From Acidobacteriota bacterium (GTDB taxonomy: Bacteria; Acidobacteriota; Terriglobia; Bryobacterales; Bryobacteraceae): DNA of 64,000 nucleotides. Shown here one piece after another: positions 10,774 through 46,890 of this stretch (within the stretch, counting starts at the first letter, position 1; each line of letters begins with the position of its first letter). The translations under genes were made by a program, and so were the position numbers. The stretch covers positions 62,001 to 126,000 of the forward strand of contig JAFKEE010000036.1 in NCBI GenBank assembly GCA_017307505.1, read 5' to 3'. The notes beneath the pieces were generated by a model. That model saw only the letters and a program-made list of their open reading frames with translations. It did not search any database and had not been told where the DNA came from.

Positions 10774-13700
10774 CTACGGCACCACCCAACTCCCCGTCTC
10801 CACCCACCCCGAATCCCGCTGCAGCGCATCCATCGACCGCTGGAACAGCAGCTTGCTGCCGGACATCGGAGCTCTCAGCGTAATCGGCGCCGATATCACC
10901 AACTGCCCCGTGGACGTCTGAACCGTCGTCCCCGCCGTATTGATCGAACACGCCGTGCTCTGCAGCGCCGTCGAGGTCACGCCCGGAGCCACCGGCCCCA
11001 GGAAGAACCCGACATCGCCCGAGTACATCCACAACCCGTTCCCCGCCCGGTCGTAGTGCAGGTAGCAGAACGGCAACCCGCCCCCATCCGCCGCGGCCGC
11101 CACCAGGAACTGCACCCAGCCCCCAATCGTTGCCGGCAGACCCGACGGGTCCGTATACGTCGCCGCAAACGTCACACTCGAGCCCGACCCCGCATTCGGC
11201 AGCACGCTGAACGCCGGCGCCGGAGCAGGCGTGTAGTTCCATATCCCCCCCTGGATCCAGCCGGAATCCCCTTCCGGCAGCGACCACTGCCGCAGGTACA
11301 ATTGCCGGCTTCCAGCCTGCTTGAACACCACCTCGAACTTCACGCTCACGCCGGAAGCTCCGGCCGTCACCGTCGTATTCGCTGTGTTAATCGCGCACAG
11401 CGAGTTCTGCAACAGGCTCGAAGCGGCGCCCGGCTTCACCGGACCCACAAAGAATCCGCCATCCCCGTACATCCACAACCCGTCGCCCACGACGTCATAG
11501 TGCAGGTAGCAGAACGGCTGCCCGCCCCCGTCCGGCTGCGTCGCAAACAACGCCTGCCCCCACAGCAAGGCACCCGGTCCGGCCGCCGCCCCAAAGTCCG
11601 CCTGGAACTTCTGCGTCGACGTGCTGCCGCCCTTCGGCGTAAAACTCAATGGCGAGGCCGCCAGCGGCAGACCCGGCTGGAAGCCGCTCAGAATCGGAAC
11701 CAGGCTGGACGTGGGCGTCGCAATTCCAAACACTCCGCTCAGGTTCGAACCCCAGCCCTTGTATTGCCCGTCCCGGCCCCAGGCCATCGTGTACCCGTCG
11801 CCGCCGCTCACCTCCGCCGTCCCATAAACCTGCGGAACCTTGCCGGCCACCGGCGAATCGGCCGCGCTCGCCACCCCCATGCCGAGCTCACCCTTCGTGT
11901 TCGTGCCCCACGTCCACAACGTGCCATCCGCCTTGATCGCCATCCCGTGCGTCACGCCGGCCCCAATCGAGACCACCTCCGTCAGCAGGCCGACTCGCAC
12001 CAGGCCGATCACCGGATCCGTTCCCGGCCCGCTGCCCAGGCGCCGCAATCCACCGTTCCCCCAGGCCCAGACCGTCCCGTCCTGCCGCAACGCCAGCGCA
12101 TACTCCGCCCCGGCCGCAATCGCCATGATGTTGGACAGACCGCTCACCTGCACCGGAGTCATATATTGAGGCGGACCCACTTGTCCTATACCCAGGCCCC
12201 ACGTCCAAACCGTCCCATCCGACCGCAGCGCCACGCTGAACTGATCCCCAGCCGCGATCTCCACAACATTCGCCAGCCCGGCGGCCTGCGTCGGCACCAG
12301 CGTCGGAATCGGCACACCGGTCCCCAACTCGCCCACCGCATTGCTGCCCCAACCCCACACCGTCCCATCCTGCTTGAGAGCCAGGCTATGATTCCCGCCG
12401 GCCGCCACTCGCTTCACACCGGTCAGCCCCGGCACCAGCACAGGACTCAGCCTGTTCGTAAACGTCCCATCCCCGAGTTGGCCCAGCGTATTGCCGCCCC
12501 AGCTCCAGACTCGTCCGTCCGACCCTACCGCCAGCACATGCTTGTTTCTCGTCGACACGCCGGCCATTCCGGCCAGCCCGGGCACCTGCCGCGCGGTTCG
12601 CACCGGATTGCTGATCAGCCCGATCCCCATCTGGCCCACATCATTGGAGCCCGCGCCCCAAATCGTGCCGTCGCCGCGCACGATCATCGTCAGCGTCCGA
12701 CCGTTCGAGACCCGCTGGCCCGTCGTCAACAGGTTCTGCGTGGCATAGGTGCAGCCCGGACCCGAGTCCGGCGGCACAAACAGATCGCTGCTCGTCAGAT
12801 CCGGCCGGCCCAGTTCGCTGTTCGAATTCCCGCCCATCACCTGCACGGTCCCGTCGTTCAGCAGCACCATCACATGGTCCTGGCCCACCGCCACGCCAAT
12901 CGCCGGCTTCGGCAGCACAAACTGCGTCTCTACGCCGGAAATCAGGTTCCCCCCATACCGCCCCGTCAATCCGCTGCCCAGGTACCAGACGGTTCCGTCG
13001 GCCCGCAGAATCCCGTTCAAGCCGTACTGGTTCGACACCTGGATCACGTTGGTGAACGTCACCAGCTTCTCCGGCGCCGTAACGTATTGAATGATGCCCG
13101 GACTCACCAGGCCCAGGCTCGTCCCGTCGCCCCACCCCCACAAAGTCCCGTCCGGCCGGATCGCCAATGTGTGGTTGTCACTGGCCGACACCGATGTTGC
13201 CGTGAACCCCGTCAGCCTCACCGGCGACCACCGGTCCGTCTTCGTCCCATCCCCCAGTTGTCCAAACGTGTTGTCGCCCCACGCGAACACCGCGCCATCA
13301 TTGCGCCGCGCCACGCTGTGATTCTGGCCCGCCGCGATCGAGGTGATGCCCGACAGCCCCGCCACCTGCATCGGTACGCCGCTGTCGTTCGTGCTCCCAT
13401 TCCCCAACTGGCCCGATGTGTTCGACCCCCACGCCCAAACCGTCCCGTCGCTCCTCAACGCGACGCTGTGGAGATAGCCCGACGCCACCGCCACCACACC
13501 GGTGAACCCTTGGATCTTCTTCGGCGACGCCACCACATGCGACGTCACCACCCCGTCGCCCAGTAGGCCAAAGGACCCTACCCCCCAACTCCACACCGAC
13601 GTATCCTGCATCACCGCCAATCCATGCGAACCTGCGTTCGACAACGCCTTCACGCCGCTCAACAGGCTGCACACCGGCGAGGGCTGCTCCACACCCGTAC

Positions 13701-14910
13701 CGTCGCCCAGTACGGCTCCTCCGTTGCCGCCCCACGCCCGCACCGTTCCATCCGCCCGCACCGCCAGCGAATTGTTGCCGGACGCCACCACCTGCACGAC
13801 CCCCGAGATCGCCGCTCTGCCCGGATCCTGCGAGGCCGCTGCCTGCCTCGCCGCCTGAGGAGTGGCCGCACCCGTTGCCGGCCCAGCGCCGCCTTCGGAT
13901 ACCAGCCCGTCGCCCCCTGGCGCCGCCGGCGTGCCCGTAATCACAGCCACCGCCCAGCCCGCCGCCGCATCCACCACCGGACCCGCCAGCGCGTACTGCT
14001 GCCGTGCGCCGCCTTCCGTCAAACTCAGCAGGCCGCTCTGCACCTCCACCACGCGCCCTGCCGCGGCCGCCGCCGGCCAGTCCAGGCTCTGGCTAACCGC
14101 CCCGGCCCGCGCCGCCATCAGGCGCGCCGCCACCTGTCCGGCCTCTGGCCCGCTCAGCATCTCGGGACCCGGCTCCGTACCCTCGCCACTCCGTCCAAGG
14201 GCCCAGGCGCGGCCCTGCCCGTCCAGCGCGTATACCCGCCCCTGCCGCACATCCACGGCCTGGATCTCCTGCAAGCCGTCCACGCGCACGGGCTCCGTCA
14301 GCATCTTCCGCGCATCGCGGCTCACCAGCCCGCTCCAATTCGACCCGAAGACCCATACGGACCCGTCGCTCTTTAACGCCACGCTGAACAGCGGACCCGC
14401 CGCGATCATCGAGACGCCGCTCAACCTCGTCACCGCCGCGGGCCGGGGCCGTTGGACCAGGGTCCCATCGCCCAGCTGGCCCTCGGAGTTGCCGCCCCAC
14501 GCCCACACCGTGCCGTCGCTCTTCAGAGCAAGCGAATGCTGTGCCCCCGCCGCAATCGCCGTGACGCCGGAAAGCCCTTCCACCTCAGACCAGCCGCCCG
14601 CCCCTGAGGCGCGGCCTGGGCCCAATTGCCCCTGCGCGTTCAGCCCCCACCCCTGGACGCGTCCTTGCGTGGTCAACACCAGCACGTGCCCGCCCGTCTC
14701 GGGCAGTGCGACTTTCCGGGCCCCGTCCACCTCCCCAATCGACCGCAAGGTATACGAAGCCGGGCCTTGGCCGGCTTGCCGCTCCAGGAGGGAAACGCGC
14801 TCTGTCCCGGATGCCGGTATGGCAAACAGCACAACCAAGGGAAGCGCAAAGAGGGGGGAACACCGCAAGCGGGCGCCGGCGGCGCCGCCGCTCCAGTCCG
14901 AGTTCAGCAA
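10774..14910 (-). CDS. Giant secreted RCC1-repeat propeller protein, copy A
   Basis: 1378 residues with an N-terminal signal peptide (hydrophobic run FALPLVVLFAIPASG). After a short lead ('LLERQ...YTLRSIGEVDGARKVALPETGGHVLVL') come about 17-18 RCC1-type units of ~50 residues with the pattern 'HSLALKSDGTVWAWGGNSEGQLGDG'. An Ala/Gly/Pro-rich linker (about 320-365) interrupts them after the fourth unit. The C-terminus has two copies of a ~130-residue domain with 'PFCYLHYD', 'GLWMY', 'FVGPVKPG/FLGPVAPG', a second Cys (CAINT/CSINT) and 'DSGW'. RCC1 units build seven-bladed propellers, usually for protein binding. Here the protein is extracytoplasmic, so surface binding or adhesion is inferred. It is the most divergent of three tandem paralogues. 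Confidence 0.9.
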   Translation of the reverse strand: MLNSDWSGGAAGARLRCSPLFALPLVVLFAIPASGTERVSLLERQAGQGPASYTLRSIGEVDGARKVALPETGGHVLVLTTQGRVQGWGLNAQGQLGPGRASGAGGWSEVEGLSGVTAIAAGAQHSLALKSDGTVWAWGGNSEGQLGDGTLVQRPRPAAVTRLSGVSMIAAGPLFSVALKSDGSVWVFGSNWSGLVSRDARKMLTEPVRVDGLQEIQAVDVRQGRVYALDGQGRAWALGRSGEGTEPGPEMLSGPEAGQVAARLMAARAGAVSQSLDWPAAAAAGRVVEVQSGLLSLTEGGARQQYALAGPVVDAAAGWAVAVITGTPAAPGGDGLVSEGGAGPATGAATPQAARQAAASQDPGRAAISGVVQVVASGNNSLAVRADGTVRAWGGNGGAVLGDGTGVEQPSPVCSLLSGVKALSNAGSHGLAVMQDTSVWSWGVGSFGLLGDGVVTSHVVASPKKIQGFTGVVAVASGYLHSVALRSDGTVWAWGSNTSGQLGNGSTNDSGVPMQVAGLSGITSIAAGQNHSVARRNDGAVFAWGDNTFGQLGDGTKTDRWSPVRLTGFTATSVSASDNHTLAIRPDGTLWGWGDGTSLGLVSPGIIQYVTAPEKLVTFTNVIQVSNQYGLNGILRADGTVWYLGSGLTGRYGGNLISGVETQFVLPKPAIGVAVGQDHVMVLLNDGTVQVMGGNSNSELGRPDLTSSDLFVPPDSGPGCTYATQNLLTTGQRVSNGRTLTMIVRGDGTIWGAGSNDVGQMGIGLISNPVRTARQVPGLAGMAGVSTRNKHVLAVGSDGRVWSWGGNTLGQLGDGTFTNRLSPVLVPGLTGVKRVAAGGNHSLALKQDGTVWGWGSNAVGELGTGVPIPTLVPTQAAGLANVVEIAAGDQFSVALRSDGTVWTWGLGIGQVGPPQYMTPVQVSGLSNIMAIAAGAEYALALRQDGTVWAWGNGGLRRLGSGPGTDPVIGLVRVGLLTEVVSIGAGVTHGMAIKADGTLWTWGTNTKGELGMGVASAADSPVAGKVPQVYGTAEVSGGDGYTMAWGRDGQYKGWGSNLSGVFGIATPTSSLVPILSGFQPGLPLAASPLSFTPKGGSTSTQKFQADFGAAAGPGALLWGQALFATQPDGGGQPFCYLHYDVVGDGLWMYGDGGFFVGPVKPGAASSLLQNSLCAINTANTTVTAGASGVSVKFEVVFKQAGSRQLYLRQWSLPEGDSGWIQGGIWNYTPAPAPAFSVLPNAGSGSSVTFAATYTDPSGLPATIGGWVQFLVAAAADGGGLPFCYLHYDRAGNGLWMYSGDVGFFLGPVAPGVTSTALQSTACSINTAGTTVQTSTGQLVISAPITLRAPMSGSKLLFQRSMDALQRDSGWVETGSWVVP

Positions 14911-15098
14911 GGTAAAGATCTCCGATTCCGAGACGGCAGGGCCGTAAGTGTGCTACGCACCCCGATCTTACCACCCACCCACGGATAGCTCCGACACTCA
15001 GCTCCAAGGCAAAAACCCTAGTTCCTACTAAGACTTCCACCCAGGTTCCAGCAGCGAGCCATCCCCTGCCAACGGCTCGCCACCCGTCTGGAGAGCCC

Positions 15099-18000
15099 CT
15101 ACGGCACCACCCAACTACCCGTCTGCACCCACCCCGAATCCCGCCGCAACGCATCCATCGACCGCTGGAACAACTTCTTACTCCCGGTCATCGGACTCTT
15201 CAACGTAAACGGCGATGAGATCACCAACTGCCCCGCATTATTCTGCACCGTAGTCCCGGCCGTATTGATCGAGCACGCCGAACTCTGCAGCACCGTCGAA
15301 CTCACGCCCGGCTTCACCGGACCCAGGAAGAACCCGACATCGCCCGAGTACATCCAAAGCCCATCGCCCGCCCGGTCGTAGTGCAGATAGCAGAACGGCT
15401 GGCCGCCCCCATCCGCCGCGGCCGCCACCAGGAACTGCACCCACCCGCCCGTCGAAAGAGGCAGCCCCGAACCATCGGTGAAGGTCGCCACAAACGTCGG
15501 AGCCGGCCCGCTCCCCGCATTCGGAGTCACACTCGGAGCCGACATCACCACCGCCGTGGAATCCCAAGTCCCTTCCTGGATCCACCCTGAATCGACATCG
15601 TTCTGGTCCAGACTGCGGGTAAAGATCTTCCTCGACGCTGCCTGCTTGAACAACACCTGGGCCCGCACCGTCAGGGTCGCCCCATTCTTCGTGAGCGTGG
15701 TCTTCTTCGGATCCACGGCGCAGAACGAATTCTGCAGCAGATTCGAAGCCGTCCCCGGAGCCACCGGACCCACGAAATACCCGCTCTCCCCATACAACCA
15801 GAGCCCGTTCCCCGGCACGTCGTAGTGCAGGTAGCAGAACGGCAACCCTCCTCCGTCCCACTCCGCCGCAAACAGCATCTGCGCCCACCGCAGTGTCGAA
15901 GCCCCCGCCGCCGATCGGAACCCAAAATCAAAACTCTGTACCGAGCTATCCCCCGAAACCGGCACCGCACTCAAAGGCGTGGTCCCCATTGGGAACCCGG
16001 GCTGAAACCCGCTCAGGATCGGAGTTCCACTGCTCAACGGTTGCGCCAATCCGAACTGGCCCGACTGATTCGAGCCCCACGCCAACAAACTGCCATCCCT
16101 CTTCCACGCCAGACTATGCTGGCCGCCTGCGCTGACACCCGCTACCCCATACAACCCCGCTACCTGAACCGGCTGGAACGACGGAGACGAAGCAGGCAAA
16201 CCCAACTGCGCTTGCGCGTTGTCGCCCCATGTCCAGACCGTGCCATCAGACCGCACAGCCATCGCATGTCGGTCGCCGGCCGAGATCCCTACGACGCCAG
16301 TGAGACTGTTCGCTCTCGCGATGCCTAGAACCGGGGACATGGGAACCCCGGCACCCAACTGCCCAGCTCCGCTCTCGCCCCAAGTCCAGACGCGTCCCTC
16401 CCGATCCAAAGCCAGCGAGAAGGCATCGCCTGACGAGATTGCGATGATGTTGGTCAGTCCTTCTACCGCGGCAGGCGCAAAGCGCTGTACCCGGCTCCCA
16501 TCCCCAAGTTGGCCCTTGTCGTTGCGGCCCCATGTCCAGACGGTGCCGTCGTCTTTCAGGACCACGCTGAAACCATTGCCGGCAGCCACATCCACCACGT
16601 TCTGAAGCCCGTCTACTAGCCAAGGAGAGAGCAGGTACTGCATGTTGTTACCCAGTTGCCGATAGGTGTTGTCGCCCCACACCCACACCGACCCGTCACT
16701 TCGTGAGGCCAGGCTGTGTGTCGCGCCTGCGGCGACCCGCGTCGCCAGAATCAGACCATTGACATATGCCGGGCTCAACTTATTTACTGTGGTCTGATCG
16801 CCAATCGAGCCATTAGTATTCAATCCCCAGGCTTGGACTCGCCCCAGCGGTCCCGCTGCCAGATTGTGACTGAAGTCTCCTGAGAGTGCGGTAATGCCGC
16901 TCAACCCGGGAACAGGCACGGCGCTCGTGCGATTGACAATCGTGCCATCACCAATCTGCCCCGAACCGTTGTTGCCCGCCGCCCAAACGGTACCGTCGCT
17001 TCGCAGAACCGCGGTATGGCCAGTGCCCGCTGCTATCCTCTGTCCAAGGTTCACGGGGATGGGCGCGGTTTCTGAACAGGTATCACTCAGATCCCGGGTA
17101 ACAAGTTCGGCAGTTCCTGCGTAGATCGCCTGAACTGAACTATCGTTCAGCAGTACCTCAATCTCAAACGCAGAAGCCGCCACGGCCGCGACGCCGCTCG
17201 GAGCATTCACATTGACTCCGGATCCAAACCAGGCGTCCCAGGCCCACACAGAGCCATCCGCGCGCAAGGCCACTGTAAAGAATTCGCAGGAGATCTGCAC
17301 CACATCGGTAAATGAGGCAAGCTTTACGGGGCTCAGTTCCGTGGCGCCAAATGAACTCCCCAACTGCATGTAATAGTTGTCGCCCCAGCCCCACAATGTG
17401 CCATCACTCCGGATTGCGGCACTGTGACCAGTGCCTGCTGCTACCGCCACGGCCGTGAAGGCCGGAATCTGAAAAGGAGCGCTTTTCGATACTGTTGTCC
17501 CGTCACCCAACTGGCCGAAGTAGTTCATCCCCCACGCAAAAACTGCGCCGTCGCTCCGTAAGGCAAGGTTGTGCGAATTGCCCGCCGCAATCGCCACAAT
17601 GCCTGTAAGGCCAGGCACCTGCTGCGGATGGCCTGTGTTGCGAAAAACCGAGGGTATTCCAAGCTGCCCGTCGGAATTGCTACCCCACACCCAGACGGTT
17701 CCGTCACTTTTCAATGCCAGGGAATGATAGGCACCCGCGCCAACCGCAACGACATTGCTGAGACCGGGCACGATCCGAGGAGTCAATCGCATGTGATCTG
17801 TCGTGATGTCATCGCCCAGAGTTCCATCCTTTCCTAGGCCCCAACTCCAGACGGTAGAGTCCGCTCGAATCGCCAGGGAATGGAAGTCACCCACAGACAC
17901 GGCCGTGACGTTGCTCAAGCCGATGCAGACCGGTACCGGACGGGTGATCGTCGTTCCATCACCTAATCGTCCAGAGTCGTTGAAGCCCCATGCGCGGACC

Positions 18001-19145
18001 GAGCCGTCAGGTCTGACAACCATGGCGAGCTGTCCATTTCCAGCAAGGCGCATCGACGGGGACGGCGCACTCGGAATGGTTAGTGCCCCTCTGGGTGGGA
18101 TTGCGCCCATCGTTGGAATCGCGCCGGTAGTGTTTCGTGTCTGCTTGTTGCCCTGCCCCGCTTCCCCAAGCCCGGGCTGCGCGCTGGCTGCAACAGTCAC
18201 GACAGCCCAGCCCGTGGCAACATCCAATGCAGCACCGGCAAACTCAAAGGTACGAAGGTTTCCGTTCGACGTCAGTCGCAGTTGATGATCCGTGACGGCT
18301 ACCTCGCCCATCGCATCCAACCACTCCGCCGACAACCGTGGACCTGTAAACTCGAGCCCCAACTCCGCAGGCCGTTCTTCCTCACCCAATACCCGCGGCG
18401 TCCCCGCCGCATTCTCCACGCCACGTCCCCAAACCCAAATCCGACCCTGCCCATCCAACGCATAGCCCACACCACGGCGCGTGGTCACAGCCCGAACATC
18501 GCTCAATCCCTCGACGCGCACCGGCTCCGTCACCAGCTTCCGGGCATCGCTTCCGGCAATCCCACTCCAGTTCGAGCCAAATACCCAAACCGTCCCGTCA
18601 CTCTTCAGAACAACCGTGAACAAAGCGCCCGCCGCGACCATCGACACATCGCGCAAGCCCGGCACAATACCCGGTCGCATATGGTTCACCAGCGACCCAT
18701 CACCCAACTGACCCTCGGAATTCGCACCCCATGTCCAGACCGTCCCATCACTCTTCAAAGCGACGGAATGCTGTGCCCCGGCAGCAATCGCAGTGGCGTC
18801 GGAAAGTCCCGGAACCTCAATAAATCCGGCCCTCGCAGCGCGATCGCCGGTACCCAGTTGCCCGTACAGATTCTGGCCCCAGCCCCAAACCCGGCCTAGC
18901 GAAGTCAAAACAAGAACATGACCGCCTGTTTCCGGCACGGCCGCGCGCCGCGCCCCCTCAATCTCACCCAGGGTTCGGAGGGAATAGGGCGCCGGACCCT
19001 GCACCTGCTGTTCCAGGAGATAAATCCGCTCAGCACCCCGGCTCGGGGTAGCAAAACTCAAAAGAGCCGCTATCGTGATCGGCGACAGGCAGCGGGCTAA
19101 ACTGCAAAACCGCGATTTCAATTTGCTCGAATTCAATTCGTACAT
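15099..19145 (-). CDS. Giant secreted RCC1-repeat propeller protein, copy B
   Basis: 1348 residues with the same architecture as its neighbours: signal peptide (LARCLSPITIAALLSFATPSRGA), 'RIYLLEQQVQGPAPYSLRTLGEIEGARRAA', about 17-18 RCC1-type units, a Gly/Pro/Thr linker around residues 320-360, then two copies of the C-terminal FCYLHYD domain. The first ~250 and last ~290 residues are nearly identical to copy C at protein level and very similar at DNA level, while the central units differ strongly. Two Cys in the propeller region, one just after the linker (PVCIGL) and one in the middle (SDTCSET), occur at matching positions in all three copies. A 188-bp gap separates it from the copy A start. 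Confidence 0.9.
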   Translation of the reverse strand: MYELNSSKLKSRFCSLARCLSPITIAALLSFATPSRGAERIYLLEQQVQGPAPYSLRTLGEIEGARRAAVPETGGHVLVLTSLGRVWGWGQNLYGQLGTGDRAARAGFIEVPGLSDATAIAAGAQHSVALKSDGTVWTWGANSEGQLGDGSLVNHMRPGIVPGLRDVSMVAAGALFTVVLKSDGTVWVFGSNWSGIAGSDARKLVTEPVRVEGLSDVRAVTTRRGVGYALDGQGRIWVWGRGVENAAGTPRVLGEEERPAELGLEFTGPRLSAEWLDAMGEVAVTDHQLRLTSNGNLRTFEFAGAALDVATGWAVVTVAASAQPGLGEAGQGNKQTRNTTGAIPTMGAIPPRGALTIPSAPSPSMRLAGNGQLAMVVRPDGSVRAWGFNDSGRLGDGTTITRPVPVCIGLSNVTAVSVGDFHSLAIRADSTVWSWGLGKDGTLGDDITTDHMRLTPRIVPGLSNVVAVGAGAYHSLALKSDGTVWVWGSNSDGQLGIPSVFRNTGHPQQVPGLTGIVAIAAGNSHNLALRSDGAVFAWGMNYFGQLGDGTTVSKSAPFQIPAFTAVAVAAGTGHSAAIRSDGTLWGWGDNYYMQLGSSFGATELSPVKLASFTDVVQISCEFFTVALRADGSVWAWDAWFGSGVNVNAPSGVAAVAASAFEIEVLLNDSSVQAIYAGTAELVTRDLSDTCSETAPIPVNLGQRIAAGTGHTAVLRSDGTVWAAGNNGSGQIGDGTIVNRTSAVPVPGLSGITALSGDFSHNLAAGPLGRVQAWGLNTNGSIGDQTTVNKLSPAYVNGLILATRVAAGATHSLASRSDGSVWVWGDNTYRQLGNNMQYLLSPWLVDGLQNVVDVAAGNGFSVVLKDDGTVWTWGRNDKGQLGDGSRVQRFAPAAVEGLTNIIAISSGDAFSLALDREGRVWTWGESGAGQLGAGVPMSPVLGIARANSLTGVVGISAGDRHAMAVRSDGTVWTWGDNAQAQLGLPASSPSFQPVQVAGLYGVAGVSAGGQHSLAWKRDGSLLAWGSNQSGQFGLAQPLSSGTPILSGFQPGFPMGTTPLSAVPVSGDSSVQSFDFGFRSAAGASTLRWAQMLFAAEWDGGGLPFCYLHYDVPGNGLWLYGESGYFVGPVAPGTASNLLQNSFCAVDPKKTTLTKNGATLTVRAQVLFKQAASRKIFTRSLDQNDVDSGWIQEGTWDSTAVVMSAPSVTPNAGSGPAPTFVATFTDGSGLPLSTGGWVQFLVAAAADGGGQPFCYLHYDRAGDGLWMYSGDVGFFLGPVKPGVSSTVLQSSACSINTAGTTVQNNAGQLVISSPFTLKSPMTGSKKLFQRSMDALRRDSGWVQTGSWVVP
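15101..15984 (-). repeat. 3' segment of RCC1 copy B, near-identical to 19289-20172 in copy C
   Basis: Long runs of identical bases are shared between 15101-15984 and 19289-20172, for example around 15260-15440 versus 19450-19630. They cover both C-terminal FCYLHYD domains of copies B and C, and similarity drops sharply upstream in the propeller units. Copy A carries the same domains but with many more differences. Confidence 0.85.
18391..19040 (-). repeat. 5' segment of RCC1 copy B, near-identical to 22642-23290 in copy C
   Basis: The stretch coding for the first four RCC1 units of copies B and C is almost the same, with long exact runs around 18500-18640 versus 22750-22890. The signal peptides and the linker immediately before and after are unrelated, so conservation starts and stops at domain borders. 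Confidence 0.85.
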
Positions 19146-19286
19146 TCCTGGATTCCTGAAGGTAATCCGATCCTATCATCTGTATATTGTCGCCGCTCGA
19201 GCCCCCTCCTACCGGCGAGGCCACAAACAGGCAGGGCGGCCCGAAGACAGCCGCCCCTCCATTCAACGCAGAATGTCCCTATTTCC

Positions 19287-22200
19287 CTACGGCACCACCC
19301 AATTCCCAGTCAGCACCCACCCCGAATCCCGCCGCAACGCATCCATCGACCGCTGGAACAATTTCTTGCTCCCCGTCATCGGACTCTTGAACGTAAACGG
19401 CGACGAGATCACCAACTGCCCCGCATTGTTCTGCACCGTAGTCCCGGCCGTATTGATCGAACACGCCGAACTCTGCAGCACCGTCGAGCTCACCCCCGGC
19501 TTCACCGGACCCAGGAAGAACCCAACATCGCCCGAGTACATCCAAAGCCCATCGCCCGCCCGGTCGTAGTGCAGATAGCAGAACGGCTGCCCGCCCCCAT
19601 CCGCCGCGGCCGCCACCAGGAACTGCACCCACCCGCCCGTCGAAAGTGGCAGCCCCGAAGCATCGGTGAAGGTGGCCACAAACGTCGGCGATGCCCCGCT
19701 CCCGGAATTAGGACTCACACTGGGAGGGTTCATCAGGACTGCCATGGAATCCCAAGTCCCTTCCTGGATCCACCCCGAATCGACATCGTTGAAATCCAGG
19801 CTGCGCGTAAAGATCTTCCGCGACGCTGCCTGCTTGAACAACACCTGCGCCCGCACCGTCAGAGCCGCCCCATTCTTGGTGATCGTGGTCTTCTTTGGAT
19901 CCACGGCGCAGAACGAGTTCTGCAGCAGATTCGAAGCCGTCCCCGGAGCCACCGGACCCACGAAATACCCGCTCTCTCCATACAACCAGAGCCCATTCCC
20001 CGGCACGTCGTAGTGCAGGTAGCAGAACGGCAATCCGCCTCCATCCCACTCGGATGCAAACAGCATCTGCACCCACCGCAGCGTCGAAGCCCCCGCCGCC
20101 GACCGGAATCCAAAATCGAAGCTCTGCGCCGAGCTATCCCCGGAAACTGGCACCGCGCTCAAAGGCGTGGACGCGACCGGATACCCCAATTGAAATCCAC
20201 CCAGTATCGGCGTCCTATACATGGTCTTCTCGGCCAATCCGAATTGCCCGGTCCAATTCCAGCCCGAAAACCAGAGCCTGCCATCGCGCTGCCAGATAGC
20301 ACTATACGTCTCACCCAAACTTACGGCCGCCACGCCTTGCAAGGCGACCTGGATCGGCAATAACGTCGGCTCCCCTACTATTGGAAGGGCCGTTCCCGCC
20401 TGACCATAGCTGTTGCTGCCCCAACTCCAGAGCCCGCCATCTGCTCTGATCGCCATAGCCGCACCCTGTCCGACACCGATATCCACTACGTCGGTGATGT
20501 CGACTCGCACGAGTCCCAACACCGGGTACAGGTTCGGACCATTCCCGAGAATGTCTGTGTAGTCATTCGTCAACATCCACACGGTGCCGTCACGTTTCAG
20601 GGCCATTGCTGCGTCGATATTCACGCGGACAGCGGCTACATCATTCAATCCCTCCACCTGGACAGGGACGGGGAACTCCTGCGATTGGGTGTTTCCGAAT
20701 AGCGTACCCCACATCCATACGGTTCCATCGGACTTCAAAGCCAGGCTGATTACACCACCTGCGGCGATTTCGACAACCCCCTGGAGCCCAGGGACTTGAG
20801 TAGGCACGAAACGGTCGATCTTGGTGCCATCGCCGATCTGGCCATAGTAGTTCGACCCCCAGCACCAGACGGAACCGTCGCTCCTCAGAGCCATGCTGTG
20901 CTGGCCGCCGGCTGAGATCTGAGTCACAGAGGTCAACCCGGGCACGAGCACCGGGCTCGAATGATCGGTCTGCGTACCATCCCCGAGCGCACCCGAATAG
21001 TTAGAGCCCCAACTTCTCACCAATCCGTCCAGACCCAGCGCCAGGGTGTGCATTGCACCTCCGGAGGCCGTTGCCATCTGGCTCAGGCCGGGCACTTTTG
21101 CCGGACTGGTAACATCGGGCCCGGCGAACCCGATCCCAAGCTGGCCGTAGCTATTCTGTCCGCCCGTCCATACACTGCCATCCTCGCTAACGCCAACAAA
21201 GTGAAGGCCCCCGACGGAAAGGCGGCGCTTCGGTGCCTGTGCCGCCGGAGGCGTGAACCGGCAGAATGTCTCAGCAGCAGGTAACTCGGGAGTCACGCTT
21301 CTCGTGATTCCGGGCCTGCCCAGTTGGCCCATATCGTTTGAGCCGGCCAGTCGCACCGTCCCATCGCTGAGCAACACGCCAAAGTGGGTGTAACTGGCTG
21401 CAACTCCGATGGCCACTGAAGGCAGCGCTACCTGGCTCAGGCCCGGTGATACAACGGCGCCGCTGTAGTCGTCGCTCCACGCACCTCGAAACGACCAAAC
21501 CGATCCATCCCCCCTGAGAATCAGAGTCAGAGATTCACCGCCGGACACTTGCACCACGTCTGAAAAATTCGTGATTTGCAGAGGTCCTATAATGCCATGC
21601 GCGGCTACGGGCAACACATTCACAAAACCATCGCTGGCACCCCAGCCCCACAATGTGCCGTCATTCCGGATGGCGTAGCTCACCACCATTCCAGCTGACA
21701 CCGAAGCCGCCGTCACTCCTGCCACATTGGTGGGCGCCAGGCGATTCACCGTGGTCCCGTCCCCAACCTCCCCTTGAGAATTCTGGCCCCAGGCAAAGAC
21801 TGCACCATCATTCTTCCTCGCCAGGCTGTGGTATGCACCGGCCGCAATGGATGTGATTCCAGTCAGGCCAGGCACCTGGACTGGGCTCGAACGAGTAGTT
21901 AGCGTGCCGTCGCCCAACTGACCGTTGGAATTGTCGCCCCATGCCCACACGGTGCCGTCGCTGCGCAGCGCCAGTGTGTGGTAAATCCCTGCGGCAATGG
22001 CCACCACCCCCGTCAAGGAAGGAACTCGGAACGGAGAAAACCGATGGTGCATCGCCTCCAAGCCATCGCCAAGCGACCCGTAAACCCCGAACCCCCAGGT
22101 CCAGACAGTTCCATCGGTTCTCAGTGCGACTGTATGAGCTCCCTTCGTGGATATGGCCTTTACCTCGCTCATCAACCCACACACTGGACGGTTTCTTTGG

Positions 22201-23354
22201 ACAGCCGTACCATCCCCGAGATTTCCGGTCCTGTTGTCGCCCCATACCCGCAAGCCGCCATCTGCTTGGACTGCGTATATGCTCGAATAGCCAATCACAA
22301 GCTGCTGGTATCCGCTACCGCTCGCCGCGGCATTTGAACCGGCCTGGCTCCTTGCCCCCGCCGTTCCTCCTGCTGCCGCAGCAAGCGACCTACCTGCCCC
22401 CGTCCTACTGCTCGCAGCGCCGCTCGTTCCACTTCCCCCCTCACTTGCGATCACGGCAACTGCCCAACCCGCCGCCACATCCGTCGCCGTACCCTCCATC
22501 GCAAACGTCCGCGAGACCCTGCCTTCCCTCATCCGCAGCACCCCACTCACAGCATCAATACCCGTCCCGAACCACTCCGCTGACAAACGCGGCCCCGTCG
22601 ACACCAGCCCTGACACCAACTCGCGCTGCGTTCCACTCAACACCCGCGGCGTCCCCACCGCATTCTCCACGCCACGTCCCCAAACCCAGATCCGACCCTG
22701 CCCATCCAACGCATACCCCACGCCGCGCCGCGTAGCGACGGCCCGAACATCGCTCAATCCCTCGACGCGCACCGGCTCCGTCACCAGCTTCCGGGCATCG
22801 CTTCCCGCAATCCCATTCCAGTTCGAGCCAAATACCCAAACCGTCCCGTCACTCTTCAGAACAACCGTGAACAAAGCGCCCGCCGCGACCATCGACACAT
22901 CGCGTAAACCAGGCACGATACCCGGCCGAGCCCGGTTCACCAGCGATCCATCACCCAACTGCCCCTCGGAATTCGCACCCCAGGTCCAGACCGTCCCATC
23001 ACTCTTCAAAGCGACCGAATGCTGTGCCCCGGCAGCAATCGCAGTGGCGTCAGAAAGTCCCGAAACCTCAACAAATCCGGGCTTCACCGCGCGATCGCCG
23101 GTTCCCAGTTGCCCGTGCAGATTCTGGCCCCAGCCCCAAACCTGGCCCAGTGAGGTCAGAACAAGAACATGCCCGCCTGTTTCCGGCAGCGCCGCCCGCC
23201 GCGCACCCTCAATCTCACCCAGGGATCGGAACGAATACGGCGCGGAACCCCGCACCTGCTGTTCCAGGAGGTAAATCTTCTCAGCGCTCCAAACCGGAGC
23301 CGCTACACATACCCACGCGGCGGCAATACCAATAGCCGCCCGACACATCGACAT
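19287..23354 (-). CDS. Giant secreted RCC1-repeat propeller protein, copy C
   Basis: 1355 residues and first in transcription order. The ATG at 23354 has AGGAAGG nine bases upstream. A signal peptide (RAAIGIAAAWVCVAAPVWSA) precedes 'KIYLLEQQ'. I count about 18 RCC1-type units; clear ones read 'YHTLALRSDGTVWAWGDNSNGQLGDG', while several central ones are degenerate. A Gly/Ala/Ser linker lies near residues 315-350. The paired C-terminal domains occupy about residues 1085-1355, each with the FCYLHYD and second-Cys pattern. No membrane anchor, sortase signal or type IX signal was recognised, so the mode of retention at the surface is unknown. Confidence 0.9.
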   Translation of the reverse strand: MSMCRAAIGIAAAWVCVAAPVWSAEKIYLLEQQVRGSAPYSFRSLGEIEGARRAALPETGGHVLVLTSLGQVWGWGQNLHGQLGTGDRAVKPGFVEVSGLSDATAIAAGAQHSVALKSDGTVWTWGANSEGQLGDGSLVNRARPGIVPGLRDVSMVAAGALFTVVLKSDGTVWVFGSNWNGIAGSDARKLVTEPVRVEGLSDVRAVATRRGVGYALDGQGRIWVWGRGVENAVGTPRVLSGTQRELVSGLVSTGPRLSAEWFGTGIDAVSGVLRMREGRVSRTFAMEGTATDVAAGWAVAVIASEGGSGTSGAASSRTGAGRSLAAAAGGTAGARSQAGSNAAASGSGYQQLVIGYSSIYAVQADGGLRVWGDNRTGNLGDGTAVQRNRPVCGLMSEVKAISTKGAHTVALRTDGTVWTWGFGVYGSLGDGLEAMHHRFSPFRVPSLTGVVAIAAGIYHTLALRSDGTVWAWGDNSNGQLGDGTLTTRSSPVQVPGLTGITSIAAGAYHSLARKNDGAVFAWGQNSQGEVGDGTTVNRLAPTNVAGVTAASVSAGMVVSYAIRNDGTLWGWGASDGFVNVLPVAAHGIIGPLQITNFSDVVQVSGGESLTLILRGDGSVWSFRGAWSDDYSGAVVSPGLSQVALPSVAIGVAASYTHFGVLLSDGTVRLAGSNDMGQLGRPGITRSVTPELPAAETFCRFTPPAAQAPKRRLSVGGLHFVGVSEDGSVWTGGQNSYGQLGIGFAGPDVTSPAKVPGLSQMATASGGAMHTLALGLDGLVRSWGSNYSGALGDGTQTDHSSPVLVPGLTSVTQISAGGQHSMALRSDGSVWCWGSNYYGQIGDGTKIDRFVPTQVPGLQGVVEIAAGGVISLALKSDGTVWMWGTLFGNTQSQEFPVPVQVEGLNDVAAVRVNIDAAMALKRDGTVWMLTNDYTDILGNGPNLYPVLGLVRVDITDVVDIGVGQGAAMAIRADGGLWSWGSNSYGQAGTALPIVGEPTLLPIQVALQGVAAVSLGETYSAIWQRDGRLWFSGWNWTGQFGLAEKTMYRTPILGGFQLGYPVASTPLSAVPVSGDSSAQSFDFGFRSAAGASTLRWVQMLFASEWDGGGLPFCYLHYDVPGNGLWLYGESGYFVGPVAPGTASNLLQNSFCAVDPKKTTITKNGAALTVRAQVLFKQAASRKIFTRSLDFNDVDSGWIQEGTWDSMAVLMNPPSVSPNSGSGASPTFVATFTDASGLPLSTGGWVQFLVAAAADGGGQPFCYLHYDRAGDGLWMYSGDVGFFLGPVKPGVSSTVLQSSACSINTAGTTVQNNAGQLVISSPFTFKSPMTGSKKLFQRSMDALRRDSGWVLTGNWVVP

Positions 23355-43963: not shown

Positions 43964-44866
43964 ATGGCGAAACTGGGCTTCCTCGGTCTGGGCATCATGG
44001 GCGGTCCGATGGCCGGGCATCTTTTGAAGGCCGGGCACGAGGTGGCGTTGTGGTCCCACACGGCATCGAAGGCGGCGGCATTGTCGGGCCTGGGCAAGGC
44101 CCTGGTGTGCGAGACGCCCAAACAGGTGGCCGAGAACGCGGACATCATCTTCCTGTGCGTGGGCGACACCGACATGTCGGCCAAGGTGACGCTCGGCGAA
44201 AACGGGTTGATTGATGGGATCCGGCCAGGAGCCGTGGTAGCCGACTGCAGCACGGTGGCTCCGAGCTATGCCCGCCGGGCGGCAGCGACGCTGGCGGAAA
44301 AGGGCGCTGAGTTCCTGGATGCTCCGGTGACAGGCAGCAAGCCGGGCGCCGAGGGGGCGACGCTCACCTTTATGGTGGGGGGCAGCCAGGCGGTCTATGA
44401 AAAAGTGAAGCCGTTCATGGAACTGATGGGGAAGCGGTTCTACTACTGCGGCGGAACAGGGCTCGGCCTGCATGCCAAGTTGACGCAGAACCTGATTCTT
44501 TCGAATCTGTTACAGGCGTTCAACGAGGGCATGGTGCTGGCGACCAAGGCGGGTGTGGACCCGGAGTTGATGCTGGATATTCTGGACAACTCGGCGGCCA
44601 AGAGCGGTTTGGTGTCGTTCAAGGCTCCTTATGTCTTCCGGCGCGACTTTAGTACTAATTTTTCAGTGAGATGGATGCACAAGGACATCGGCCTGATGCT
44701 GGAGACAGGCAATGAGATGGATGTTCCGCTGCCGTTGACCGCGCTGACACAACAGATGTTCCGGGCGGCGATTGCCGAAGGCGTCGGAGAAGACGATATC
44801 TGCAGCACTATCAAGGTGTTAGAGCGGTTGGCCGGGGTTGAAGTAAAAAAAATCTCCCAAAAATAG
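43964..44866 (+). CDS. 3-Hydroxyisobutyrate dehydrogenase family oxidoreductase
   Basis: 300 residues. The cofactor loop 'LGFLGLGIMGGPMAGHLLKAG' opens the protein. The substrate loop 'DAPVTGSKPGAEGATLTFMVGG' and catalytic Lys in 'GLHAKLTQNLILSNLLQAFNEG' identify the beta-hydroxyacid dehydrogenase family (hydroxyisobutyrate, tartronate semialdehyde, succinic semialdehyde or glyoxylate reduction). 'RDFSTNFSVRWMHKDIGLMLETG' is also standard. Glyoxylate/succinic semialdehyde reductase is a reasonable guess given the divergent glyoxylate-reductase-like gene. Its stop abuts the first structured repeat. Confidence 0.9.
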   Translation: MAKLGFLGLGIMGGPMAGHLLKAGHEVALWSHTASKAAALSGLGKALVCETPKQVAENADIIFLCVGDTDMSAKVTLGENGLIDGIRPGAVVADCSTVAPSYARRAAATLAEKGAEFLDAPVTGSKPGAEGATLTFMVGGSQAVYEKVKPFMELMGKRFYYCGGTGLGLHAKLTQNLILSNLLQAFNEGMVLATKAGVDPELMLDILDNSAAKSGLVSFKAPYVFRRDFSTNFSVRWMHKDIGLMLETGNEMDVPLPLTALTQQMFRAAIAEGVGEDDICSTIKVLERLAGVEVKKISQK

Positions 44867-44876
44867 TAGAAAGTTC

Positions 44877-44905
44877 TTGCAATCCGGGAATTGGTATTCT
44901 AAGAT
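44877..44905 (+). promoter_or_regulatory. sigma70-type promoter of repeat copy 1
   Basis: TTGCAA (44877-44882), a 17-base spacer, then TAAGAT (44900-44905). Both hexamers are identical in copy 2, while seven spacer bases differ between copies. That pattern of change is expected if the hexamers are what matters. Confidence 0.7.
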
Positions 44906-44910
44906 TGGAA

Positions 44911-44970
44911 TCAAGCCAGGGAGGCAACTCCCACCAAAGCGAGACTAACCTCAAAAGACCCCTGAAGCAT
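44911..44970 (-). CDS. Candidate 19-residue peptide ORF antisense to the small RNA, copy 1
   Basis: On the - strand GGGAGG lies four bases before ATG (44970), and 19 codons run to TGA (44911-44913). The peptide begins MLQGSFEV and continues with a hydrophobic stretch (SLALVGVASLA). The ORF and its ribosome-binding site are wholly covered by the + strand RNA. Because the two copies are identical here, selection on the reading frame cannot be tested from this window. No promoter was evident on this strand. Confidence 0.22.
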   Translation of the reverse strand: MLQGSFEVSLALVGVASLA

Positions 44971-45011
44971 TCAACCTCCCTGGCGCCCTCTGGGTCTTGC
45001 TTCCCTCCTCC
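44911..45011 (+). ncRNA. Candidate structured small RNA, copy 1
   Basis: The region starts about six bases after the -10 box, ends around the CCCTCCTCC motif (45003-45011), and has no ATG on this strand. GGGAG-GCAA-CTCCC (44919-44932) forms a GNRA-type hairpin. Alternatively GCCAGGGAGG (44915-44924) pairs with CCTCCCTGGC (44975-44984). AAGACCC (44955-44961) pairs with GGGTCTT (44992-44998), crossing the long-range stem as a pseudoknot would. Several C/T-rich segments are complementary to Shine-Dalgarno sequences. The 3' end is uncertain because no T-run follows. No named RNA family was recognised. Confidence 0.5.
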
Positions 45012-45014
45012 AAA

Positions 45015-45465
45015 AAAACTTAACGAACAGCTGATGAGCTGAAGTTGTGCCTGGGCGGGTTTCGTCTCCGGGCAAGGCTGAAGTGTTTTCCGGGCCGGCG
45101 TGCCGGCGGCCTGGGTGGCGAACTCGTCGATCCCCATCGCTGCGCCCTGGCATGCAGTTTGGGATAGTGCCGGCGCTGGCGCAACGGAGCTGAGAATCAA
45201 TTCTCATTTGTTCGCTCGATTGCCCTGCTCTCTTCGGCCGGAGGGTGTGGAAATCCCAAATTTGGTGGGGAATGGGCACCTCGGGCCAGTGGTGGGCGCA
45301 GATTATGAGAAACTGGAGCGGCCATGGAGTTGAGAATGAAGGGCTTGCCGGAACAGGGCCGATCCCGGCGGGGTGGATGGCTGCTTCTTTCAGAATTCAT
45401 AACCATGTGTAATCAATGACTTACGGATTCCGCACCAGTCAGTTGGATTTTTTCTACAGAAAACC
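45015..45465. other. Spacer between the two structured repeats
   Basis: No convincing coding frame was found. It contains a short palindrome TGAGAATCAATTCTCA (near 45191-45206) and, at the right edge, TTTCTAC (45451-45457) facing GTAGAAA (45466-45472), which could form a hairpin at the border of copy 2. Nothing else was interpretable. Confidence 0.5.
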
Positions 45466-45476
45466 GTAGAAAGTTC

Positions 45477-45505
45477 TTGCAATCCGCTAAACGGTATTCT
45501 AAGAT
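45477..45505 (+). promoter_or_regulatory. sigma70-type promoter of repeat copy 2
   Basis: TTGCAA (45477-45482), 17-base spacer, TAAGAT (45500-45505). It could drive a stand-alone RNA or, by read-through, dxr. Confidence 0.7.
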
Positions 45506-45510
45506 TGGAA

Positions 45511-45570
45511 TCAAGCCAGGGAGGCAACTCCCACCAAAGCGAGACTAACCTCAAAAGACCCCTGAAGCAT
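45511..45570 (-). CDS. Candidate 19-residue peptide ORF antisense to the small RNA, copy 2
   Basis: Identical in sequence to the ORF at 44911-44970. The GGGAGG element is only three bases from ATG here, one less than in copy 1, which weakens the translation signal. Confidence 0.2.
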   Translation of the reverse strand: MLQGSFEVSLALVGVASLA

Positions 45571-45611
45571 TCACCTCCCTGGCGCCCTCTGGGTCTTCCA
45601 TTTCCTCCTCC
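45511..45611 (+). ncRNA. Candidate structured small RNA, copy 2 (or dxr leader)
   Basis: It has the same crossed pairings as copy 1, with all paired segments conserved: GGGAG-GCAA-CTCCC, GCCAGGGAGG with CCTCCCTGGC, and AAGACCC with GGGTCTT. It also has the same 3' CCTCCTCC motif (45604-45611). Because it ends 80 bp before dxr, this copy might act as a leader of that gene. Copy 1, which has no gene downstream on the same strand before copy 2, argues for an independent RNA. Confidence 0.5.
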
Positions 45612-45690
45612 AAAACAGCAAGTACCGTAAAGAAATGTGCGCATCCAAATCAGTAGCAGCGCGCAGTGATAGAATTACGGGCGTTCGCTC

Positions 45691-46890
45691 ATGCAACGAG
45701 TAACCCTCCTCGGATCCACCGGCAGCATTGGTCAGAGCACGTTGGACGTGGTTCGACAGAACCCGCAGCGCTTTGCGATTCACGCCCTGGTGGCAGGCCG
45801 CAACCTGGCCAAGTTAGCCCAACAAATACAAGAATTTGAACCAGCCGTCGCGGTAGTGGCCCGGGACGAGGATGTCCCCGAGCTGGCCGCTATGTTGAAG
45901 GAAGCCGGCGTACGGGTGCCGGAGCTGCGCTCCGGTCTGGCGGCGTATACGGAAGTGGCAACGGCGCCGGAGACCGATTTCGTGATGTCGGCGATTGTCG
46001 GGGTAGCTGGAATGGAAGCTACCTATGAGGCGATCCGGCTGGGCAAGCGCATCGGGTTGGCGAACAAGGAAACGCTGGTGGCGGGCGGCAGCCTGGTGAT
46101 GGCGGCCGTGAAAGAGTTCGGGACCGAGCTGATCCCGGTGGACAGCGAGCACAATGGGGCGCACCAGTGTTTGCGGGCGGGCCGGCGGGAAGACGCGACG
46201 AAGCTGATTCTGACGGCTTCCGGTGGTCCTTTTAGGAAAACTCCTAAAGAAGATCTCGTTCTTGTAAAACCTGAACAGGCCTTGAACCATCCAACATGGC
46301 AGATGGGTCCGCGGATCACGATCGATTCGGCGACCCTGATGAACAAGGGCTTCGAAGTCATTGAGGCGTGCTGGCTGTTTGACTTCCCAACCAGGCAGGT
46401 GGAAGTAGTAGTACATCCACAGTCTACGGTCCATGCCATGGTGGAATACAATGATGGCAGCGTGATCGCGCAGGTTTGCGCGACCGACATGAGAATGCCA
46501 ATTCAATACGCCCTGACATACCCGGAGCGATTGAGCGCGCCGGTACCGCGTTTGGATTGGGCCCAGGCGAGGACCTGGGAGTTCCATGCTCCGGATCTGG
46601 AGAAGTTTCCCCTTTTGAGATTGGCCTATGAGGCGCAAAATACGGGGGGGACGGCTACTTGTACGCTGAATGCTGCCGATGAAATAGCAGTAGAGGCGTT
46701 CCTGCGGAATGAAATCTCATTCCCCGGGATTGCGGAAGTGGTCGAAGAGACATTGAACAGGGTGCCCAGCCAGCCGTGCCGGTCGATCGGGCAGGTGCTG
46801 GAGGTAGATCGGGATTCTCGGGTGACGGCGCGCCAGGTGGCGCGCGAGCGGTTGGGTGCGCGGGTGATGGCTAGCCCCGCGAAGTACTAG
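45691..46890 (+). CDS. dxr: 1-deoxy-D-xylulose 5-phosphate reductoisomerase
   Basis: 399 residues, the standard length. It converts DXP to 2-C-methyl-D-erythritol 4-phosphate with NADPH, committing carbon to the MEP isoprenoid pathway. Motifs: 'VTLLGSTGSIGQSTLDVV' (NADPH loop), 'GLANKETLVAGG', 'IPVDSEHNGAHQCL' (metal-binding Asp and Glu), 'LTASGGPFR', and 'GPRITIDSATLMNKGFEVIEACWLFD'. It is followed 14 bp later by rseP, a very common neighbour in bacteria. Structured repeat copy 2 ends 76 bp upstream. Confidence 0.97.
   Translation: MQRVTLLGSTGSIGQSTLDVVRQNPQRFAIHALVAGRNLAKLAQQIQEFEPAVAVVARDEDVPELAAMLKEAGVRVPELRSGLAAYTEVATAPETDFVMSAIVGVAGMEATYEAIRLGKRIGLANKETLVAGGSLVMAAVKEFGTELIPVDSEHNGAHQCLRAGRREDATKLILTASGGPFRKTPKEDLVLVKPEQALNHPTWQMGPRITIDSATLMNKGFEVIEACWLFDFPTRQVEVVVHPQSTVHAMVEYNDGSVIAQVCATDMRMPIQYALTYPERLSAPVPRLDWAQARTWEFHAPDLEKFPLLRLAYEAQNTGGTATCTLNAADEIAVEAFLRNEISFPGIAEVVEETLNRVPSQPCRSIGQVLEVDRDSRVTARQVARERLGARVMASPAKY

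Follow-up and report, generated by a model that had tools for sequence, protein, structure and literature searches.

The 64,000-nucleotide stretch of an Acidobacteriota bacterium genome analysed here (hereafter, the window) contains two near-identical elements in a gap between two genes, which a sequence-only reading of the DNA had put forward as a candidate pair of new small RNAs. The locus raises the question of whether these elements are genes for an RNA in their own right and, if so, how widely such an RNA is distributed and how it might act.

Two copies of the element lie between a dehydrogenase gene and dxr

A repeat search of the window recovered near-identical repeats of 121 nt at 44853-44973 and 45453-45573 (93% identity, spacing exactly 600). 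These are followed by a second block of 25 nt at 44974-44998 and 45573-45597 that is 100% identical at a spacing of 599, because one base has been deleted between the copies. The search bore out the earlier description of a near-identical pair 600 bp apart, with its coordinates right. Both copies are on the + strand, in the gap between a 3-hydroxyisobutyrate dehydrogenase-like gene upstream (43964-44866, + strand; NAD_binding_2 and NAD_binding_11) and dxr, encoding DXP reductoisomerase, downstream (45691-46890, + strand); an M50 protease gene comes after dxr. The gap had been called gene-free, and this held: the longest ORF between those at 43964-44866 and 45691-46890 has 129 codons, and the five gap ORFs compared with Pfam at an E-value of 0.01 (69-129 codons) gave no match. 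Elsewhere in the window, the - strand carries three ORFs in a row (10774-23354; 1378, 1348 and 1355 codons), each with a strong match to RCC1-like repeat domains; giant RCC1-repeat proteins are thus encoded in tandem here, in a bacterium.

Comparison of the two copies showed five differences in the 24 nt 5' of the -35 hexamer, none in the -35 hexamer itself and four in the 17-nt spacer that follows. From the -10 hexamer through 44973 (74 nt) the copies are identical, and divergence starts at 44999. Placing the start from the -10 hexamer, the conserved transcribed core would span 44912-44998 in copy 1 and 45512-45597 in copy 2, both on the + strand.

Several copies occupy the same gap in the window's genome (two), in G145 (two) and in G100 (three). 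By eye, the dehydrogenase-side and dxr-side copies each resemble their counterparts across genomes in linker and flanks. Because each copy resembles its positional counterpart elsewhere, the duplication seems to predate these species and to have been retained as a pair. Two or more matches were found in 16 of 200 genomes of the window's family, some of them at contig ends. The contigs of loci L007, L029, L030, L033, L034, L039, L057 and L058 begin or end within or just beside the element, as would happen if tandem copies had interrupted assembly.

The promoter is conserved along with the RNA

Both copies share the promoter layout TTGCAA-17-TAAGAT. In copy 1 the -35 hexamer lies at 44877-44882 and the -10 hexamer at 44900-44905, which would place the transcription start near 44912. 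The corresponding hexamers of copy 2 lie at 45477-45482 and 45500-45505, with a start expected near 45512; all are on the + strand. Across the order, TTG at -35 together with TAnnnT at -10 was present in 86 of 88 copies, and 86 of the 87 copies in which a promoter was scored have a spacer of 17 nt; these counts come from a script that sought TAnnnT 6-13 nt before the stem P1 described below and preferred a 17-nt spacer. One of 89 rows, which had short flanks, was left out of these and of the tail and terminator counts. In addition, an A/T-rich stretch is found upstream of the -35 hexamer across copies. A generic sigma-70 scan of the window reported no promoter at either copy, because it requires at least 9 matches out of 12 and the promoter of the element has 8. 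The suggestion that the promoter is maintained as the spacer drifts was upheld, both by the unchanged hexamers beside four spacer differences and by the 86 conserved copies. Thus, as is characteristic of free-standing noncoding RNA genes, the element has a promoter of its own that is conserved along with the RNA.

A covarying stem closes the ends of the RNA

The core contains a 10-bp long-range stem, P1, whose arms lie at 44915-44924 (5') and 44975-44984 (3') in copy 1 and at 45515-45524 and 45574-45583 in copy 2, all on the + strand. In 87 distinct rows, 99.4% of 870 cells were paired, and 43 cells were doubly changed compared to a shuffled mean of 5.6, with none of 500 shuffles reaching 43; this alignment had been fitted to the P1 structure. 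Sliding the partner by one to three columns lowered pairing to 50-67%. In a free MAFFT alignment of 58 copies, the nine main P1 pairs were 100% paired and two pairs were doubly changed, a number reached in 13 of 500 shuffles. The minimum-energy fold predicted for the window copies also contains P1. Taken by itself, the folding energy did not stand out over 103 nt (z -1.4, with 19 and 16 of 200 shuffles equalling it), but in copy 1 the 85-nt core gave a clear signal (z -3.0, with none of 200 shuffles equalling it). The long-range stem had been proposed from the window alone, and the compensatory changes that we looked for were found in seven of its ten pairs. P1 thereby gives the element the conserved secondary structure with compensatory changes that marks a noncoding RNA gene.

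Two further pairings proposed for the window copies fared less uniformly. The local hairpin P2 (GGGAG/CUCCC with a GCAA loop) is present in both copies and shares its 5' arm with P1; its partner strand CUCCC, also the first C-rich strand, lies at 44928-44932 of copy 1 (+ strand), and the complementarity is largely kept. No double or compensating changes were found for P2 in alignment A1. A helix of at least four pairs with the 5' arm is possible in 75 of 89 rows, and the P2 loop is GNRA in 54 of 89 by a hand count from the hairpin listing, the scripted figure of 15 of 89 arising from a choice between two tied registers. The GNRA-capped hairpin therefore exists in the window copies but is not general. 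Similarly, the crossing pairing AAGACCC/GGGUCUU is present in the window copies, and the variable 3' part (GCCCUCUGGGUCUU, 44985-44998, + strand) can pair with AAGACCC in some lineages. Across the alignment, the best pairing between the inner segment and the 3' tail, sometimes a duplex other than AAGACCC/GGGUCUU, was stronger than 95% of shuffles for 38 of 89 rows; the 19 rows from families f2 and f3 include no such case. As judged from the alignment, the crossing stem is lineage-specific, so that it stands for the window copies and not as a general feature.

Two weak terminator-like sites were listed at the element (shuffles, mean 1.1). In a strict scan, a terminator-like site was found in 3 of 17 f3 copies and in 1 of 71 copies outside f3. 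The f3 copy L101 folds an imperfect terminator-like stem, of a kind that the strict scan misses.

The loop is strongly conserved and rich in C-rich strands

The loop enclosed by P1 is highly conserved: in 29 of its 50 columns, identity across the order is 95% or more. In copy 1 it includes the conserved unpaired segments CCACCAAAGCGAGACUAACCUC (44931-44952) and AAGACCCCUGAAGCA (44955-44969), both on the + strand. Two linkers within the loop vary in length, from 3 to 13 and from 3 to 12 nt. Two short helices predicted inside the loop showed zero variation in 58 rows and, because they never vary, are without covariation support. Since these helices lack such support and the linker lengths vary, the loop fits better as separate single-stranded modules than as one rigid fold. 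The varying linkers also bear on coding potential: the length of the first linker takes every residue modulo three (41, 30 and 18 rows). We rejected a small protein as the product, because linker lengths change by amounts that are not multiples of three and one window copy lacks a base that the other has.

Several unpaired C-rich regions are found in the loop (CUCCC, ACCUC and GACCCC), and CCUCCCC lies in the 3' arm of P1. It had been suggested that repeated CCUCC-type segments are complementary to ribosome-binding sites. CCUCC or UCCUC occurred within 55 nt 3' of P1 in 29 of 88 copies, compared to a mean of 14.4 and a maximum of 25 in single-base shuffles, and in 9 of 88 further downstream. 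In a pilot comparison with 38 ORF starts from the window, the loop showed no advantage, 133 of 200 shuffled loops pairing at least as strongly. The difference in pairing between the starts and the insides of these 38 ORFs was reached in 56 of 200 shuffles, indicating no preference for starts. This pilot is a weak one, as the start codons are uncertain and an SD-like tetramer is present in 12 of the 38. The anti-Shine-Dalgarno proposal is thus unproven.

The RNA is found throughout the order and matches no Rfam family

Searches of related genomes, as the sequence-only reading had suggested, showed that the element is widespread. A DNA search found it in 182 of 200 genomes of the window's family. 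In the order, which many record names give as Bryobacterales, a covariance model detected it at an E-value of 0.01 in 143 of the 150 genomes searched, in all three sampled families and with one match per genome in most genomes. This first model was built from 58 copies picked out of 68 distinct full-length cores, and a second from 89 copies. A pattern scan of named genomes returned at least 119 stretches; among the 80 listed, 79 carried acidobacterial names, 38 of them with Bryobacter. One locus carrying the RNA, L175 (VFZE01000003.1), is labelled Acidimicrobiia, a label that looks wrong.

Outside the order, the first model found none in 294 genomes of the phylum. The second, searched at an E-value of 0.1 per genome, gave weak matches in 3 of 224 genomes of the class and 7 of 393 of the phylum. 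Among these, L268 (G555, f87; ~1501-1595) had an E-value of 2e-4, where about 0.05 such matches would be expected among 224 genomes, the E-values being rough; 8 of its 10 P1 pairs are preserved with different letters, as is much of the loop, but the TTG-17-TAnnnT promoter is absent. L262 (G752; ~1501-1599) has an E-value of 0.027, a level at which 393 genomes would yield about ten matches by chance; it preserves 7 of 10 P1 pairs and is the sole one of the ten outside matches with TTG-17-TAnnnT at the usual distance. By eye, L267 (~1501-1590; E-value 0.08) shows an outer stem of 8 bp and, apart from it, a GGAG-GAAA-CUCC hairpin. These three loci are possibly distant relatives and possibly chance matches, and, on the two borderline cases L268 and L262, the RNA may be older than the order.

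At the gathering cut-off, Rfam 15 gave no match in the window or in 19 loci, and permissive scans returned three eukaryotic families, all far below cut-off. We therefore rejected a known Rfam family, in line with the earlier failure to recognise a named one. The literature matches listed, as far as their available text extends, name no small RNA of this order besides the uncertain Solibacter-1. That candidate motif is described in the accessible part of its source as occurring in Solibacter usitatus only, carries a question mark as an RNA and has no Rfam number (PMC2864571, Weinberg 2010). By the record names, its source organism belongs to the same group; compared by description rather than by sequence, Solibacter-1 and the acidobacterial RNA could be identical. 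We regard the element as a new RNA family that spans the order and is well supported by comparison. The prediction of a new small RNA thus stood, and that of a local pair gave way, since the distribution is that of an order-wide family.

6S RNA is likewise compact and free-standing, with paired ends. The element gave no match to it (RF00013), and a separate 6S-like locus is present elsewhere in the window's genome (G000:C28; 40.1 bits, below the cut-off of 46.4), so we rejected 6S RNA as its identity. At an E-value of 0.1, RF00013 was found in 12 of 13 genomes of f1, six of which pass the cut-off, and in none of 8 genomes of f2 and f3. Bacterial small SRP RNA (RF00169) resembles the element in its length of about 100 nt and in its presence nearly throughout the group; it was rejected in turn, being a locus of its own in 19 of 21 genomes, on contig 55 in the window's genome. 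No rRNA was found in the window's assembly.

The element is independent of its neighbours and of Hfq

We fetched 110 loci, of which 96 have at least 1000 nt on both sides (full flank). At these 96, both neighbours were on the same strand as the element in 59, the dehydrogenase gene alone in 12, dxr alone in 6 and neither in 19. A same-strand dehydrogenase gene thus precedes the element in 71 of the 96 loci, and a same-strand dxr follows it in 65. Where dxr follows, it does so after 43-934 nt, and after 43-205 nt in 67 of 72 loci (all flanks); in L025 and L046 it is 930-934 nt away. At 17 of the 96 full-flank loci, neither gene was found within the ~1.5 kb of fetched flank. These 17 include all ten loci of genus g78, eight of which have another upstream gene in common. 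The element is inverted relative to dxr in L029, L034, L036, L039 and L041 (genera g9, g50 and g68); L036 and L041, with dxr on the opposite strand, are two of the 19 loci with neither same-strand neighbour, and L029, L034 and L039 are at contig ends. In L036, from a two-contig genome, the dehydrogenase gene, an inverted element and dxr lie in that order, both genes being opposite to the element. Such inverted and relocated copies show an independence from neighbouring genes that is typical of noncoding RNA genes, and the comparison shows that the element is a free-standing RNA gene, not a leader of dxr.

Hfq (PF17209) was found in 38 of 51 genomes examined. No Hfq was detected by PF17209 in the other 13, comprising 11 genomes of g78 (G201, G203-G206, G208, G209, G214, G215, G218 and G219) together with G210 and G217; completeness is 74% for G217 and 87-98% for the others. 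The RNA is kept in 12 of these 13 genomes. Because 12 genomes without detectable Hfq retain the RNA, we rejected Hfq as a requirement, and the RNA is unlikely to depend on it as a partner. No rule connected the loss of Hfq with changes in the loop: g78 combines the absence of Hfq with an altered loop, but G210 (g81) has no Hfq and the usual loop.

Possible modes of action

Taken together, these results make it almost certain that the element encodes a functional, free-standing RNA. In the mechanism that we propose, a sigma-70-type promoter would start the RNA about 3 nt before P1. P2 could form first during transcription and then give way to P1, an order that is possible because P2 uses the same 5' arm. 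P1 would lock the ends of the RNA, and would close and display the strongly conserved loop. The C-rich strands (CUCCCACC, ACCUC and GACCCC, with CCUCCCC once P1 opens) could then pair with G-rich sites in mRNAs. A comparable system is RoxS/RsaE, presented in the accessible text of its source as a trans-acting sRNA conserved from B. subtilis to S. aureus, with four C-rich regions for G-rich mRNA sites (PMC5419742). The acidobacterial RNA resembles it, as so described, in standing alone and in having C-rich unpaired regions for such sites, but differs in that one long stem closes the whole RNA; nor does it match any Rfam family. We put the chance that the RNA acts by base pairing in trans, in the manner of RoxS/RsaE, at about even. 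The pilot on ORF starts counts against trans-pairing, as does the extent of loop conservation: the 29 of 50 loop columns that are at least 95% identical exceed what a short seed needs, and may reflect the binding of a protein or a tertiary fold.

A protein-binding RNA, in which the closed loop titrates or scaffolds an RNA-binding protein as in 6S RNA and CsrB/RsmZ-type RNAs, would account for this loop conservation, and the A/T-flanked promoter and repeated C-rich modules with variable linkers agree with it. The lack of a supported helix within the loop, the 6S-like gene elsewhere in the genome and the dispensability of Hfq tell against it, and we hold it as a possible reading well short of an even chance. 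A core RNA of the order with a mechanism not previously described, in which the end-closing stem presents the loop and a switch between P2 and P1 may control access to the C-rich 3' arm, is a similarly tentative proposal. Somewhat less probable still is a housekeeping RNA with a tertiary fold that acts on the ribosome or another machine and is of a kind not yet described. Near-universality in the order, mostly at one copy per genome, and retention despite the loss of neighbours or of Hfq speak for such an RNA, but its confinement to one order, borderline matches aside, and the varying linker lengths do not.

The remaining two readings are far less probable. A cis-acting leader or riboswitch of dxr or the neighbouring operon would explain why a same-strand dxr follows the element in 65 of the 96 full-flank loci and why, where it follows, it is mostly close by, but has been largely refuted: we rejected a dxr leader because of the five inverted copies and the 17 loci without either gene, and the tandem copies and the gaps of 930-934 nt also speak against it, so that this reading is very improbable. 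Scarcely credible at all is a functionless mobile or repeat element, despite the tandem copies and the 16 family genomes with at least two matches. It is refuted by the covariation, that is, by the compensation in P1; the promoter kept as its spacer drifts and the position conserved in 59 of 96 loci are also contrary to it. Searches of viral contigs, plasmids and phages returned no match, and a mobile or phage origin was accordingly rejected.

Acidobacteria are among the most abundant soil bacteria. The RNA was found in nearly all of the order's genomes that were examined, and with its promoter kept and its clear covariation it is a strong candidate for a core regulator. As the RNA and its promoter are present in most of those genomes, it probably does something important there. 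The RNA could enter RNA catalogues at once, and its role is testable in cultured members.
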